Counted from the stretch's first letter, positions 3,861 through 10,839 are shown. The stretch: DNA of 64,000 bases from Thermanaerosceptrum fracticalcis (GCF_000746025.2 NZ_CP045798.1:3083501-3147500), one strand, 5' to 3'. The notes: a model not told the origin generated them from the letters alone. Numbers and translations are program-made.

Positions 3861-6044
3861 CTATCCCTCATCTTTCGCTATGCTTTCCACTGCCAGGTAA
3901 AGGAGTGTGGGGGCCACGAAAATCATAGAAGTGGCTGCCGCCACAATTCCCGAATCATTCATAATTAAAGCTACAAGGCTGCCTGTGATCCCTGCCCCAA
4001 AACCCGCTTTCAGTCCCGGGTATCTTTCCATTAGCCTTTTGACCAAACCGGGCGGGCGGTAAAACAAAAGGGCAAAAGTGCCAAGGAAGGTCATAAATAC
4101 CCGGCTCCAGATGGTATAGCGTATCAGTTTTATGTTCATGGCAATTTTGCGGCTGGCGATGGGAAAGAAGGAGGCAAGTCCCTGTTCCTGGATTATTCTC
4201 GCCGCCAGGCCGATATGGGACTGGGCTTCCAGGGGCCTTTTCAGGTCGAAATAAAACAAAGCGGTAAGAGCCAGCATGGTACATAAGCCTAGAGTAATAA
4301 GGGACTTTGTATTAATTTTTCTTTGGAAGAAAGTAAGGAGAAATATGGCAAAACTTAGTAAAAAGGTAATACCGCCTCCTACATTTGTGCCCCACTGGGG
4401 AGCAGACACTAAACAGGTCAAAAAACCGGCAAGCAAAGGAAGCATCAGGTAAGCGGCTACTTTAGGAAGATAGAATTTAAATGCTTCTGTCAAGAGTGAT
4501 AAACCCATGAGGCTGGATCCAAGCAAGACGCCCATGTATTCGTTGCCAATCCCGTAATAACGGGCGCCGCTGATAGGATCATAGCCAAGGAGGGAATTTT
4601 TCATGAGCGGGGCTCCCTGGAGAAGGTCAACAACAATAAGAAAGGCTGTCAATAGATAAGGATAAGCCAGCCGTTTGAGAAGGTCACACTTCTTCTCCAG
4701 CACAGCTGTACTTAAGATGAGGCCGGAGAGGATAAACAGGATGCGGGGAATTAAACCAATTCCGGGAAAAAGGGGGAGTAAGAGCAAAAGGAGGGGAACA
4801 AGGGTCAGTAACAAAAGAAAAGAGCGACAGTATTTAATCCAGGGGTGACGGAGCCATAAGAGGCAGATGGTAGAAAGGACGACGACAATTTGCAAAAAAA
4901 CATAGGGTTTTAAGATTTGAGGCCTTTGTTGGTGATTGGCCAGCAGTTTTTCCTGCAGGTCAAAAAGAAAATCCAGGCTATTTTCCCGGGGAATAACCTG
5001 CAGAGGGCTGCCGATAAAAACACCGGCATAATCAATGTTAAAGAAGTTGAGGACTGTGGGGGCAACATCCAGATTCGTTATTATTCCAGTTCTTTTCGTA
5101 CTGGCGGAGCTTAAAAGGCCTGATGTACTCCGGTTTGGATAATAAATGACGGGAGCCAGGGTATTACCTTTAAGTGCCTGAGTTTTCGATGGATAGGGTG
5201 TAATAAAGAGCAGGCCAGCACCATGTTCCTGGGATAGCTTTCTTAACTGTCCCATAAAAACATCGATTTCTGCTAACATGCTCTCCCTGGTTTTTTGGTA
5301 AACATCCGGAGCCATTTCTTCCCTCAGGTTTTCTAACCTGGCCAGGTCGCCAAGATCAAGAATGATTAATCCCTTTTTACCTTGTAGAATTTCTTTAGTT
5401 TTTTTAAGCAGGTATGCATAATTGGTTGTGTAATATGTAGGTGAAAAAGTACTTATTTTATTGCAGCGCTGGTCTATGGCCCCTTCTGCCACCTTTCCCG
5501 TTTTGTCCATGGCAAAGAGGACACCAGGGCGGGAAAGTATGCCTGGCAGGTCATGGTTGCCTAAAAGGGCAACAGGAACGGCATTTTTCTCAAGGATGGT
5601 GCCTAAGGCACCGGGTTGTAAATCCGGGAGATTAGCGGCAGCCACAGCATAATAGTAGGGGTGAACAATACTGGCATCACCCGGCAGGTTACCGGTATAT
5701 CTTGTATAGAGATCCACAGCTTTTAAGTCATGGAATTCCTCGGTTTTTTCCAGACCTAAGATCCCCTCTTTGGGTGCTATTGCTCGAAAACCTGAGCCTA
5801 AAGTCAGGTAAGCACTAGGCAGATGCTTGCTGCTCCCGCTTAATGTATTCATCAAACCTAAGGAACCTTTAGCCGCCATTCCCTGGAGATGATTCAGTTG
5901 TGGGGCTTTTAGATCTTCCAGGTTCAGGCCCGGTATTAATACGATGAAGAGGGAGGCAGTACTACCCTGCCCGTAGGCCTGCGAGGGGCTGAACAATAAA
6001 AGAAAAGAGAGTATGACGGGAATTAGAGAACGAAGAAGATGCAA
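3861..6044 (-). CDS. AlkP-like/sulfatase-fold exported membrane protein
   Basis: About 727 aa. A signal-peptide-like N-terminus (hydrophobic stretch ending near SQAYG) leads into an exported alkaline-phosphatase-superfamily-like domain of about 350 residues: a strand LIVLIPG-type start, DL..APQLNHLQ, and later DLGDLARL and THYA-like segments. At least nine hydrophobic helices fill the C-terminal half. Proteins of this layout are common in Clostridia with no established substrate. An in-frame ATG at 6065 lies upstream, but the only good ribosome site, AGGAGGAG, lies within codons 3-6 of that version. I therefore prefer the TTG at 6044, six bases after AGGAGG. Function unknown. Confidence 0.7.
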   Translation of the reverse strand: MHLLRSLIPVILSFLLLFSPSQAYGQGSTASLFIVLIPGLNLEDLKAPQLNHLQGMAAKGSLGLMNTLSGSSKHLPSAYLTLGSGFRAIAPKEGILGLEKTEEFHDLKAVDLYTRYTGNLPGDASIVHPYYYAVAAANLPDLQPGALGTILEKNAVPVALLGNHDLPGILSRPGVLFAMDKTGKVAEGAIDQRCNKISTFSPTYYTTNYAYLLKKTKEILQGKKGLIILDLGDLARLENLREEMAPDVYQKTRESMLAEIDVFMGQLRKLSQEHGAGLLFITPYPSKTQALKGNTLAPVIYYPNRSTSGLLSSASTKRTGIITNLDVAPTVLNFFNIDYAGVFIGSPLQVIPRENSLDFLFDLQEKLLANHQQRPQILKPYVFLQIVVVLSTICLLWLRHPWIKYCRSFLLLLTLVPLLLLLLPLFPGIGLIPRILFILSGLILSTAVLEKKCDLLKRLAYPYLLTAFLIVVDLLQGAPLMKNSLLGYDPISGARYYGIGNEYMGVLLGSSLMGLSLLTEAFKFYLPKVAAYLMLPLLAGFLTCLVSAPQWGTNVGGGITFLLSFAIFLLTFFQRKINTKSLITLGLCTMLALTALFYFDLKRPLEAQSHIGLAARIIQEQGLASFFPIASRKIAMNIKLIRYTIWSRVFMTFLGTFALLFYRPPGLVKRLMERYPGLKAGFGAGITGSLVALIMNDSGIVAAATSMIFVAPTLLYLAVESIAKDEG

Positions 6045-6076
6045 TATACTCCTCCTCATTTGCATTTGTTAATTAA

Positions 6077-6274
6077 GGTTTGCCACCACGTATCCCGATC
6101 TTCGCATAGAACAGACTAAGACTCGTTTCGGGAAAAAGCAGACCACCCTCAACAGTCCATCCGTGGACTGGCTTCGGGTTGGGTATGACCTCGTGTCAGC
6201 CCCTCTGCTTTTTCTACCTCACTTCGCTAAGTCTGTTTAGCTATGCTCCGATAGGGAACGTTTGTGGCAAAACC
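6077..6274 (-). ncRNA. Candidate structured RNA: long rod with central bubble (6S-like)
   Basis: A ~198-base imperfect inverted repeat. The ends pair (GGTTTTGCCACAAACG against CGTGGTGGCAAACC), then GCATAG..AACAGACT arms, then an unpaired bubble of about 15 bases on each side, then an AAAAAGCAGA/TCTGCTTTTT arm, an inner arm and an apical CAGTCCA/TGGACTG hairpin. Closing stem, large central bubble and terminal stem are the general design of 6S RNA. On the minus strand a TAGAAT -10-like hexamer (6278-6283) sits just before the repeat, so the 5' end would coincide with the closing stem. No sequence-level match is claimed; a MITE-like inverted repeat is the alternative. Confidence 0.45.
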
Positions 6275-6390: not shown

Positions 6391-6422
6391 CTATTGAAAA
6401 ACATTCTCAATAGGACTATACT
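6391..6422 (+). promoter_or_regulatory. Sigma-A promoter with embedded inverted repeat
   Basis: TTGAAA (6394-6399), a 17-base spacer and TATACT (6417-6422) precede the regulator gene at 6452. An inverted repeat, CTATTGA and TCAATAG separated by 9 bases (6391-6413), covers the -35 and spacer, a natural place for autoregulation by the adjacent regulator. Two GAATATTT direct repeats lie just upstream (6362-6369, 6381-6388). Confidence 0.65.
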
Positions 6423-7248: not shown

Positions 7249-7488
7249 ATGGAAGATTGTTTCAAAAAGATTCTTGATGCCGTGGACATTGAAACCTATT
7301 TCGCTTGCAAGGATGAGGCGGAGGGAAGGGCCCTGGCTTTAAATCTCTTGGAGAAGTTCGGCCTTAAGGACATTGACATTGTCTTTATCGAGTTTACAGG
7401 CCCGGGGGCAAGAGTAAGAGCCCGGGGATATGTTTACCGTCCTGGTGACCATTATGGATGGCTTGAAGGAGGGATGGCTAATGAATAA
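7249..7488 (+). CDS. Small protein resembling the B12-aminomutase dimerisation (OAM_dimer) domain
   Basis: 79 aa from the ATG preceded by GGGAGGAG; an in-frame ATG 15 bases upstream is too close to that site. The middle reads as helix (EAEGRALALNLLEKFGL) then two strands (DIVFIEFTGPG, ARVRARGYVYRPGD). From memory this matches the alpha-beta-beta N-terminal dimerisation domain of the lysine 5,6-aminomutase beta subunit, normally fused to the Rossmann domain. Here it is free-standing. The end overlaps the next gene by 8 bases, so translation is coupled and a complex with the mutase is likely. Homology is inferred by eye. Confidence 0.6.
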   Translation: MEDCFKKILDAVDIETYFACKDEAEGRALALNLLEKFGLKDIDIVFIEFTGPGARVRARGYVYRPGDHYGWLEGGMANE

Positions 7489-9295
7489 AGAGAGACCCAT
7501 CTTGCTGGCGCCCCTTGATCCGGTCCATGACATCGGTTTAAAGATTATGAAGAGAGCCATGGATGAGGCAGGGTTTAAAACCATACTGCTTCCTCCTGAT
7601 TACCAGGCTGAAGAGATTATCAAAGTAGCCCTGGAAAACGATGTTGCCGCTATTCTGATCAGCCGCACTTTAGGTTATGGCGTCGCCGAACTCCTGGCCA
7701 GGTTTGCCGATTTAACAGAAGCAGCGGGCCTTAGGGAAAAGGTGAAATTGGCTATTGGGGGAATGTGTATCCGGCCTGAACTGGCCCAGGAGCTGGGCTA
7801 TGATGCCGGTTTTGGCCCCGGAACCAAGCCGGAAGAAGTGCTGGCCTTCCTGGAAGGTGTGGAATACCAGCCAGATTTAAGCGCCAATACCAAAGAAAAA
7901 GCTGCTCTTGCCCAAGGCTTTACTTATGTATACAAGAATAAACAGATAGAAGAGCTTCTGGATACTATCGTAGATTCCATCCTGGTCTGGGCTCAGCATA
8001 AAACATCACCGGCCATTAAACGGGCGCAAATCAGGGAAAAGCTTTTAAAATTGCCTGCGGGGGCTGACCGTTCCGAGTTGTTGCAGGAATATTTAAAATG
8101 GTGTGACCCTAAGGTAAAGGACTTTTACGAAAAAGGCACGATGCCTCCCAAAACCAGGCCGTTAACTTCCGAAGAATTAGCGCGCCTGGACAGTTACGTG
8201 TCTGAAACGCAAAAGCGTATGACGGTACAGAAACTCCAGCACAGTAAGGCCAAACCGGTAGTCTTCATCCAGTACGGTACGGGCTGTCCTTTTATGGATA
8301 TTGCCCATATTAAAACAGGGGAAGCCTGGGGTGCCGATGGTGTTGTCCATTTTGACCCCTCCTGGGGAGCCCGTACAGAAGGTTTCCTGGAAGGCTACCT
8401 GACCCATGAGGAAGACGGTTCCATCATTACCCCGGAAAACCTTATGCGGATTAAAGGGTCTTTATGCCAACATACCCTCTGGCAGGTGAGAGCTCACCGT
8501 GGGCTAAATTCTCCTGAAACAGTCCTCCTGGCAGGGGCTATGGGAGCAGATCTCACCAAAATTAATATTGCTTATGGTTCTTTGGGGGCCGGTACCGATC
8601 CTGCTCGCTTGACCGTTGATGCCATCCAGGCCATACGCTATGCCGTACAGTATAATTTGCCCTTTGATGTGGTCACTAATGAAGAATTGTGCGGTGTTCC
8701 CGCCCATAAAGCCTTTGCCGGAATGCTGATCACGGCCCACCTGGGACGCCGTCTCGGTGGTAAACCTATCCTGCAGCCACTTTTCTGCTACTCGCCGGAG
8801 GTCATGGTTTCTGGTGAGATGAGTGATAACTATATTGACTTCAATGCTGCCAAGATTATGGCTTTGCGTAATATCGTGGATGCACCTATCTGGCCCGGCG
8901 CACCCATCGGCTTTTTGACCCAGACGGAAGACAGGGTACAATCCTCAGTAACCACAGCCCTGCACGGAGCCCTGGCCTCCTCCTTAGGTGTGGAAGCCAT
9001 CTCTATAGCCTCCTCTGATGAGGCTTATTCCGGCGGTCCCATCTCGGCTCCTTCCCGGATTGATACTTTACGGGCCCTCAAAGAAGCCTTCCGTTTCTTT
9101 GGCCGTGCAGGTATCCAGCCAACGGAAAAAGCACAAATTTGGGCAGAACGGATGGAAAAAGGCATTGAAGAAGTATTAGAGGCAGTAGCAGCCAAAGGCG
9201 ATTTTGTAGGTGCCTTATATGACGGTCTTTTGGGCAGTGTAGCCGAAGGGGCATACCCAGGACGGGCCGGACGCGGTTCTCTCCTTGAGGAGTAA
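7481..9295 (+). CDS. Cobalamin-dependent aminomutase-like protein (Rossmann B12 domain + TIM barrel)
   Basis: 604 aa. Residues about 5-125 form a B12-binding domain of the base-off/His-on type: DPVHDIG (His16 the likely lower cobalt ligand), SRTL near 62 and IGGMC near 95. Residues about 255-570 resemble the TIM barrel of lysine 5,6-/ornithine 4,5-aminomutase, including a GARTEGFLEGYLTHEE segment like the substrate loop I recall from that family. Domain order is reversed relative to OraE, and the motif is DxxHxxG rather than DxHxxG. By alignment from memory, Met replaces the PLP-binding Lys of KamE. A carbon-skeleton or amino-group 1,2-shift is likely; the substrate is unknown. ATG at 7481 follows GGAGGG. 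Confidence 0.7.
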   Translation: MNKERPILLAPLDPVHDIGLKIMKRAMDEAGFKTILLPPDYQAEEIIKVALENDVAAILISRTLGYGVAELLARFADLTEAAGLREKVKLAIGGMCIRPELAQELGYDAGFGPGTKPEEVLAFLEGVEYQPDLSANTKEKAALAQGFTYVYKNKQIEELLDTIVDSILVWAQHKTSPAIKRAQIREKLLKLPAGADRSELLQEYLKWCDPKVKDFYEKGTMPPKTRPLTSEELARLDSYVSETQKRMTVQKLQHSKAKPVVFIQYGTGCPFMDIAHIKTGEAWGADGVVHFDPSWGARTEGFLEGYLTHEEDGSIITPENLMRIKGSLCQHTLWQVRAHRGLNSPETVLLAGAMGADLTKINIAYGSLGAGTDPARLTVDAIQAIRYAVQYNLPFDVVTNEELCGVPAHKAFAGMLITAHLGRRLGGKPILQPLFCYSPEVMVSGEMSDNYIDFNAAKIMALRNIVDAPIWPGAPIGFLTQTEDRVQSSVTTALHGALASSLGVEAISIASSDEAYSGGPISAPSRIDTLRALKEAFRFFGRAGIQPTEKAQIWAERMEKGIEEVLEAVAAKGDFVGALYDGLLGSVAEGAYPGRAGRGSLLEE

Positions 9296-9306
9296 GTAGG
9301 TGATAA

Positions 9307-9333
9307 AAATCAGAAAGTTATCCTTTCTGATTT
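9307..9333 (+). promoter_or_regulatory. Intercistronic hairpin
   Basis: A perfect 11-bp stem (AAATCAGAAAG / CTTTCTGATTT) with a 5-base loop lies 11 bases after the mutase stop, without a U-tract. It probably acts in mRNA processing, stability or partial attenuation between the mutase and PLP-enzyme genes rather than full termination. Confidence 0.6.
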
Positions 9334-9372
9334 AACATAAATAAAGATTACCAAGAAAAGGAGTTGTTTTTC

Positions 9373-10839
9373 ATGGCAAAATTTAAGTTCAAGTATCAAA
9401 TGTACAAACATCTGCAGGCCAACATTCCCAATATTTATGCGGAAGCCAAAAAGGCCGCAGAAGAAATCGGTATCCCTGCGGAACTCAAAGGGAAGTTCGG
9501 TTTGACTGGAGCCATTTCCGGCTGTCCTGCTCCTCTCAGGGATGATATTCTTCATGCCGGCGAGGTGGAAGCCAAGAAAGTTGTTCCCCTGGCCACCTAT
9601 GTAGAGGAAATGAGAGGTCTTGTGAAAGAGGTCTATGGCGACGACTATGATGTAGCACCTGTAAACACCTGTGAAGCTGGCCTCTGGGTAACCTTCGATA
9701 CCCTCTTTACACCTCCTGCTATGGGTCGTGGCGATAACTACAGAGCCCGTTACATAGCTCTCTACGAAAAGCACTTGCACCACCAGGGCGGCTATGGACG
9801 TCCCTTCCCGCCCCGTTATAAGGATATCTTTGCTGACAGAGGTTCCACAGCAGGTGAATTAGGTTTCTATGGTAAGCGTCAAAACAATCTGGATACTATT
9901 ATAGCTCCTCTGGCTGGCGCAAAGTACGATGTGCACGGCATTAAGTATCATCCTGTACCCCTTCTCACAGAAGTTGATCCTGTGGCTTCCAAAGCTAAAT
10001 TAGAAGAACTGGCTGAGCGCCATGCCACTATGCTCACCGGTTTCACCAGCCTAGGCTATGAAACACCTGGCTATGGTTACGGGGTAAAAGACGAAAACGG
10101 TACTCCCGTGCTGCAGAAAATGGTAGCAGAGGTTGCTCATAAGTACAATGTTCCTTATGTTATCGACAACGCCTGGGGCTTACCTTTCGTAGGAACTAAC
10201 CCCGTGAAAAACGGTGCTGATGTGATCATCTACAGTATGGACAAAGCCACTGGTTCACCTCTCTGCGGTTTGATTATCGGTAAAGAAGAGTTTATGGTAC
10301 CCATCCGCCGCGCTATGGGTATGCATGGTGATCGTTACGGTACGACTGCTTCCTACGGTAAAGCCGCTTACGTTACCAATGACCCCGGTAAGGAAGCTCT
10401 GGTTGGTGCCCTGGCTGCTCTCCGCGTACTCAAGGATAAGCCCGAAGTTCTTACCAAGCCTGTTGATGATCTTTACAAGGTTGTTGTGGAAGAATTTGCC
10501 CAGATCGATCCCCAACTCAAAGAAGGCATCATCATTAGCAAATCCTACAACTCCACCGCTGTGGAAGTTAACTATGAAGGAACCTGGAAGAATGAACGCT
10601 TGGGTATTCCCATCTTCTCCATCGAAGATATGTATGCCGGCAGCAACATCTTCCAGACCGGTATGGCTCAAATGGGTGTTATTCCTACTATTGCTTATGA
10701 CGCCAACATCTACATTTCACCCGGCCTCGGTACTTGCGATGACAACGGCCAGCTCATTGAGGAAAGAGCCCGCTACGCCGTTAAGGCTCTGGTTAAACTC
10801 ATCGAAATCACCTGCAAATACGCCGGTATTCTTGAATAG
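9373..10839 (+). CDS. PLP-dependent enzyme, fold type I, SelA-like
   Basis: 488 aa from the ATG nine bases after AAGGAG. A fold-type-I aminotransferase-like core is visible: HATMLTGFTS, then VPYVIDNAWG (Asp for the PLP ring nitrogen), then VIIYSMDKATGSPLCGLIIGK, where Lys291 is the likely Schiff-base lysine in a context resembling the FSGDKLLGGPQ of selenocysteine synthase SelA. The N-terminal ~150 residues are family-specific. It lies 77 bases after the B12 mutase and ends at a strong terminator, so it probably completes that pathway, either supplying or consuming the rearranged amino compound. Reaction unknown. Confidence 0.7.
   Translation: MAKFKFKYQMYKHLQANIPNIYAEAKKAAEEIGIPAELKGKFGLTGAISGCPAPLRDDILHAGEVEAKKVVPLATYVEEMRGLVKEVYGDDYDVAPVNTCEAGLWVTFDTLFTPPAMGRGDNYRARYIALYEKHLHHQGGYGRPFPPRYKDIFADRGSTAGELGFYGKRQNNLDTIIAPLAGAKYDVHGIKYHPVPLLTEVDPVASKAKLEELAERHATMLTGFTSLGYETPGYGYGVKDENGTPVLQKMVAEVAHKYNVPYVIDNAWGLPFVGTNPVKNGADVIIYSMDKATGSPLCGLIIGKEEFMVPIRRAMGMHGDRYGTTASYGKAAYVTNDPGKEALVGALAALRVLKDKPEVLTKPVDDLYKVVVEEFAQIDPQLKEGIIISKSYNSTAVEVNYEGTWKNERLGIPIFSIEDMYAGSNIFQTGMAQMGVIPTIAYDANIYISPGLGTCDDNGQLIEERARYAVKALVKLIEITCKYAGILE

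Follow-up and report, generated by a model that had tools for sequence, protein, structure and literature searches.

In a 64,000-nucleotide stretch of Thermanaerosceptrum fracticalcis DNA (GCF_000746025.2 NZ_CP045798.1:3083501-3147500), hereafter the window, three adjacent genes at positions 7249-10839 encode P0001, a small protein resembling an aminomutase dimerisation domain, P0002, a mutase-like protein with a B12-binding domain, and P0003, a putative pyridoxal 5'-phosphate (PLP) enzyme. Our preferred interpretation, to which we assign a probability of roughly 0.6, is that P0001 and P0002 constitute a third architecture of the KamDE/OraSE superfamily, a PLP-free adenosylcobalamin (AdoCbl) radical isomerase accompanied by a separate fold-type-I PLP enzyme. 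The trio probably encodes a radical enzyme that has so far escaped recognition and that serves an uncharacterised bacterial pathway. To our knowledge, only two B12- and B6-dependent aminomutases are established, and the PLP in the barrel is thought to be central to the radical chemistry of such enzymes. The present system is of the KamDE/OraSE kind, is new in its architecture and possibly carries out a new reaction.

Domain architecture of P0001 and P0002

P0001 (7249-7488, + strand) is 79 residues long, and its AlphaFold2 (AF2) model, built from a 27-row alignment, has a β-α-β-β topology with a predicted local distance difference test (pLDDT) of 86. When the model was compared with 350,542 PDB chains, the eight best matches were all OraE (3kow, 3kp0, 3kp1) or KamE (8t0v, 9q1a), with a probability of 1.00 and a root-mean-square deviation of mostly 1.0-2.0 Å over about 55 columns. 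The P0001 profile also aligned to the KamE N-terminus (probability 79%). Within the PDB the relationship surfaced only through the fold, as an hmmsearch of its sequences with the P0001 profile gave no match, and the score against Pfam OAM_dimer was 12.6 bits, below the 25-bit cut-off. The predicted structure thus indicates a dimerisation domain of the KamE-N/OraE type, as in members of the KamDE/OraSE superfamily. Of the 43 P0002-type loci that we sampled for gene order and alignments, 41 have a P0001-type gene immediately upstream of the mutase. A divergent mutase (47%) in genome G063 (L089, 9916-14279) has no small dimerisation gene directly upstream, and an isochorismatase-family hydrolase gene occupies its place. 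Apparent N-terminal mutase extensions at two loci (L071 and L099) were considered as fusions and rejected, since they arise from reading through the small gene in another frame.

P0002 (7481-9295, +) has 604 residues and consists of a B12 domain, a helical segment and a TIM barrel. The B12-binding Rossmann domain spans residues 1-130 (7481-7870, +), with a Pfam match at residues 14-121 (1.5e-12), and is nearest to KamE by sequence (2e-13, or 5e-20 with a profile); it also matches corrinoid methyltransferase proteins. Against the equivalog models of KamE (NF052385) and OraE (NF040743), P0002 reached 56 bits (cut-off 280) and 40.2 bits (cut-off 800), and both matches cover the B12 part only. In the axial-histidine motif DxHxxG, which reads DPVHDIG in P0002, HxxG is retained while the Asp has been replaced by Pro (P14 in P0002) to give D-P-V-H-D-x-G in 43/43 relatives; the axial histidine, H16, and K21 are invariant in the family.

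The helical segment (approximately residues 150-250; 7928-8230, +), which carries the motif K-T-S-P-x-x-x-R-A, resembles OraS and the KamD N-terminus, and hhalign matched it to OraS with a probability of 91% over 34 columns. For the barrel (approximately residues 255-604; 8243-9292, +), hhalign against KamD gave a score of 55.0 over 388 columns (probability 88%); 29 unrelated profiles scored at most 27.7 and a reversed KamD scored 20.5. The Pfam KamD barrel family Lys-AminoMut_A (PF09043) has no match in P0002 or elsewhere in this genome, and outside the B12 domain no Pfam or NCBIfam match to the GlmE/MutE barrel family was found in P0002. In the AF2 model of P0002 (42 rows, pLDDT 86.3, predicted template-modelling score 0.84), the whole chain found KamD (1xrs_A, 4.3e-16) as its top Foldseek match in the PDB, followed by 8t0v_A, 9q1a_C and OraE, with glutamate mutase and isobutyryl-CoA mutase ranked lower. 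According to the model, P0002 therefore contains a KamD-type TIM barrel fold of the superfamily. The initial annotation had proposed a B12 Rossmann domain ahead of an aminomutase-like barrel and a KamE-like small protein, and both proposals agree with these results; at the level of family profiles, its assignment holds for the B12-binding domain and not for OAM_dimer or PF09043.

All domains of KamDE and OraSE are present in P0001 and P0002, in a third partition. Lysine 5,6-aminomutase KamDE (PDB 1xrs, 8t0v, 9q1a) is divided into an OraS-like part with the barrel and a dimerisation domain with the B12 domain, and ornithine 4,5-aminomutase OraSE (PDB 3kow-3kp1) into OraS and a single chain, OraE, in the order barrel, dimerisation domain and B12 domain. 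In the window, the dimerisation domain stands by itself and the B12 domain, OraS-like helices and barrel form one chain. The system shares with KamDE the KamD-like barrel, the OraS-like N-terminal helices, the KamE-like B12 and dimerisation domains and a KamB-like reactivase, but its dimerisation domain has its own gene, its B12 domain is fused 5' of the barrel, P0002 lacks the PLP lysine, the phosphate loop and a PF09043 match, and a separate PLP enzyme is always present. The domain set is that of OraSE, but P0002 incorporates the OraS-like part, arranges its domains as B12 domain, helices and barrel, and has lost the PLP site. The order of the domains on the DNA reads as a kamE-kamD pair that was joined at the E/D boundary and then divided just past the dimerisation domain. 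Glutamate mutase and isobutyryl-CoA mutase are AdoCbl mutases that, like P0002, combine a B12 domain and a TIM barrel without PLP, and in IcmF the B12 domain likewise precedes the barrel; however, they have neither an aminomutase-type dimerisation domain nor KamB, and by sequence P0002 matches their B12 domains only. The rearranged partition and kinship with KamDE and OraSE, as put forward by the initial annotation, are thus supported by fold and profile matches.

Loss of PLP ligands in the mutase and the separate PLP enzyme

The PLP ligands of KamDE are K144 of the beta subunit, R184, G187, Q188, S189, Y236, S238, Y263, R268 and N299 (PMC3958899). We compared these positions in a joint sequence alignment of 43 P0002-family members, 10 KamD, 9 KamE and 6 OraE. 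K144, R184, Q188, S189, Y236, S238, Y263 and R268 are retained in 10/10 KamD or 9/9 KamE and in 6/6 OraE. In all 43 P0002-family members, the position of the Schiff-base lysine K144 is deleted, with Leu, Met or Ile at H+11, and the K629 segment, the counterpart of the K144 segment, is likewise missing. The phosphate loop R-T-x-G-Q-S has become D-P-S-W-G-A in P0002, and throughout the 43 relatives R184 is replaced by Asp, the loop is W-G-A, Y236 is Ala or Thr, S238 is Arg, R268 is Ala or Gly and N299 is Glu or Gln. The sole ligand retained is Y263, which corresponds to Y365 (43/43). Invariant D292, R337, H339 and R340 of P0002 take the place of the PLP site. As judged from the alignment, the canonical PLP site is absent from the family, so that PLP-assisted amino migration by P0002 is unlikely and the name aminomutase, which the initial annotation had used, cannot be assumed.

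P0003 (9373-10839, +) is a 488-residue protein with weak but consistent similarity to the Cys/Met and SelA/DgaE families of PLP enzymes. Its K291 aligns with the PLP lysine of O-acetylhomoserine sulfhydrylase, and both K291 and D265 are invariant in 34 rows; they are the probable Schiff-base lysine and pyridine-nitrogen aspartate, respectively. With this Lys and Asp pair in the large domain, P0003 is assigned by its sequence to the fold-type-I PLP enzymes, as had been predicted. While the regions of the PLP lysine and the Asp are shared with the Cys/Met and SelA/DgaE families, P0003 can be aligned with them over only about 60-90 residues and stays below the curated cut-offs (Pfam, 22.6 versus 27 bits; NCBIfam, 34.7 versus 385). 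P0001, the P0002 barrel and P0003 all fall outside the curated families of Pfam and NCBIfam.

Locus, distribution and conserved neighbours

The three open reading frames were recovered with the coordinates and lengths initially annotated. The P0001 and P0002 genes share 8 nt, and a Shine-Dalgarno-like AAGGAGGG stands immediately 5' of the P0002 ATG. The three genes form one operon behind P0004 (6452-7183, +), an FCD-domain (GntR/FadR-like) regulator with an N-terminal HTH_12 (Pfam FCD 1.3e-21, HTH_12 2.7e-8). A consensus scan gave a sigma-70-like promoter candidate 5' of the regulator gene (6394-6422, +; TTGAAA-17-TATACT), in a scan whose count of matches was not significantly above that in shuffled sequences. 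A probable intrinsic terminator 3' of P0003 (10847-10869, +), a GC-rich stem-loop followed by a run of T (GCCGCC-CATGA-GGCGGC-TTTTTT), was read from the sequence and is absent from the output of that scan. Scans for B12 riboswitches near the cluster gave none, whether in the window or at the other loci covered. On the minus strand, a TwoAYGGAY RNA (RF01731, 45.7 bits, gathering threshold 43) at 6097-6253 sits upstream of a 734-residue open reading frame at 3861-6065.

Across 398 Bacillota genomes, full-length P0002 relatives occur in 39 and P0003 in 40, and the two co-occur in 39/39 genomes with P0002 (Fisher p ~2e-53). Because of this co-occurrence and the P0001-type gene upstream in 41/43 loci, the association of the three genes, which had been suggested from one locus, goes far beyond what chance would give. 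Among the sampled genomes, G094 alone has a P0003-type gene (L144, 7051-8565) and no P0002-type mutase. DUF6917 is found in the same 39 genomes plus one more. Recurrent neighbours comprise the FCD regulator (a P0004 homologue in 30/43 loci), DUF6917, RidA, P0003, a GidA-like flavoprotein, a permease without a Pfam match and the KamB-like reactivase. The GidA-like flavoprotein (for example, L061, 8083-9429) has a conserved Cys cluster, C-x6-C-x2-C-x3-C-P, possibly an Fe-S or metal site.

The initial annotation did not include this wider cluster or the loss of the mutase PLP site, and also missed a second mutase copy in the same genome. This copy, 61% identical, lies at 411,024-412,829 (within L061 9986-11815, genome positions 411,009-412,838) in a fuller cluster ordered DUF6917, RidA, P0003 type, flavoprotein, P0001 type, mutase and KamB-like reactivase. 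In the tree, the two copies fall in different clades, and three genomes have both types. A third place in this genome (L138, 6056-13567) carries RidA, the GidA-like flavoprotein and DUF6917, and adjoins EtfA/EtfB/ETF-QO-like (FixABCX-like) electron-transfer-flavoprotein genes and a DHDPS-family aldolase gene. In G031, which lacks both the mutase and P0003, RidA, DUF6917, the regulator and the permease are found at a contig end (L143, 272-3574), possibly as a fragment. A contig scan with a single query sequence returned one close relative and one B12-only match, and a plasmid tblastn returned KamE-type B12 domains only. In the literature searched on DUF6917, KamB reactivation and new or heliobacterial aminomutases, which did not include most subscription papers, we found no description of the cluster.

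In one tested batch, a KamB-like reactivase was present in 26/26 carriers, 15 of which lack KamD/OraE; therefore, the reactivase belongs to the P0001/P0002 system, which thus has a dedicated KamB-type reactivase as KamDE does. The window's genome has one reactivase and no KamD/OraE, and this protein scores 225.9 against an NCBIfam cut-off of 210. The KamB model NF052386 scores reactivases of the system at or around its cut-off even where KamDE is absent (for example, L061, 11998-13014, and homologues). In such genomes the KamB label is likely a misannotation, and we caution that the model names many reactivases of this system lysine 5,6-aminomutase reactivase.

Proposed mechanism and alternatives

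The reactivase, the dimerisation domain, the axial-histidine B12 domain and the KamD barrel point, by analogy with KamDE and OraSE, to AdoCbl-based radical chemistry that involves domain movement. P0001 probably joins two P0002 chains. The B12 domain would hold AdoCbl in the His-on mode through H16 and, on substrate binding, swing over the barrel, where homolysis of the Co-C bond would give the 5'-deoxyadenosyl radical and the substrate would be rearranged by a 1,2-shift. Since the PLP site is gone and invariant Arg, His and Asp residues stand there, we infer that the substrate is anionic, held directly by P0002 and rearranged without a PLP aldimine in the mutase. The KamB-like P-loop protein would reactivate the mutase, P0003 would act separately on its substrate or product, RidA may clear a reactive enamine or imine, and the GidA-like flavoprotein is perhaps linked to an electron-transfer flavoprotein. 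P0003 together with RidA and the flavoprotein suggests substrates that resemble amino acids and pass through imines, and the pathway is probably catabolic and under the FCD regulator. Leucine, γ-aminobutyrate/3-aminoisobutyrate and diamino acids were considered as substrates and dropped for want of evidence.

Several points weigh against this interpretation. His-on binding is not certain because the Asp of DxHxxG has been replaced. The kinship of the barrel is weak by sequence and comes mainly from the predicted structure. The PLP-site mapping is alignment-based, residues 295-297 of the P0002 model have pLDDT below 50, and the retained Tyr263 (Y365) could mean that a PLP-like ligand is still stacked there.

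An AdoCbl-dependent eliminase, that is, an ammonia-lyase or dehydratase resembling ethanolamine ammonia-lyase (EAL), would also fit the missing PLP site and the neighbouring RidA and flavoprotein genes; its aldehyde or carbonyl product would pass to the flavoprotein and P0003. EAL-type enzymes move or eliminate amino groups without PLP. However, the nearest folds are KamD and OraE and then the glutamate and acyl-CoA mutases, with no EAL or diol dehydratase among the top 50 matches listed, and the reactivase is KamB-like, not EutA/DdrA-like, so we regard an eliminase as unlikely. Slightly harder to sustain is a 1,2-aminomutase that still depends on PLP, held by other residues such as the invariant K21 and Y365. 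KamD is the nearest fold and the Tyr263 equivalent persists in 43/43, but the equivalents of K144, R184, Q188, S189, Y236, S238 and R268 are all lost, and K21 is a weak candidate for the PLP lysine because B12 domains without bound PLP, such as those of methylmalonyl-CoA mutase and glutamate mutase, commonly have a lysine at H+5. It is improbable that the PLP site has moved to P0003 as a fold-type-I subunit which, in complex with P0001/P0002, gives PLP-bound substrate in trans. The loss of the site does coincide with the invariable presence of a PLP enzyme, encoded next door in the window; in the sampled clade B loci, however, several genes usually separate P0003 from the mutase, G063 has the two on different contigs, G094 has P0003 without P0002, and we know of no precedent for such supply to a radical domain. 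A corrinoid-dependent methyltransferase system with a TIM-barrel methyltransferase, which the additional matches of the B12 domain would allow, is very improbable given the KamD-like barrel fold, the KamB-like reactivase and the dimerisation domain P0001, and no RamA-type activator was seen among the recurrent neighbours.

Returning to the PLP-free radical isomerase, we put at even odds the broader proposal that a PLP-free branch of the superfamily catalyses an undescribed radical rearrangement in an unrecognised anaerobic pathway spread across many Bacillota families, with P0003, DUF6917, RidA, the GidA-like flavoprotein and the KamB-like reactivase as its markers. If true, a widespread relative built from the same parts, recut and lacking the PLP anchors, would show that the scaffold of the superfamily supports another radical reaction, and its conserved neighbours open an entire uncharacterised pathway to experiment.

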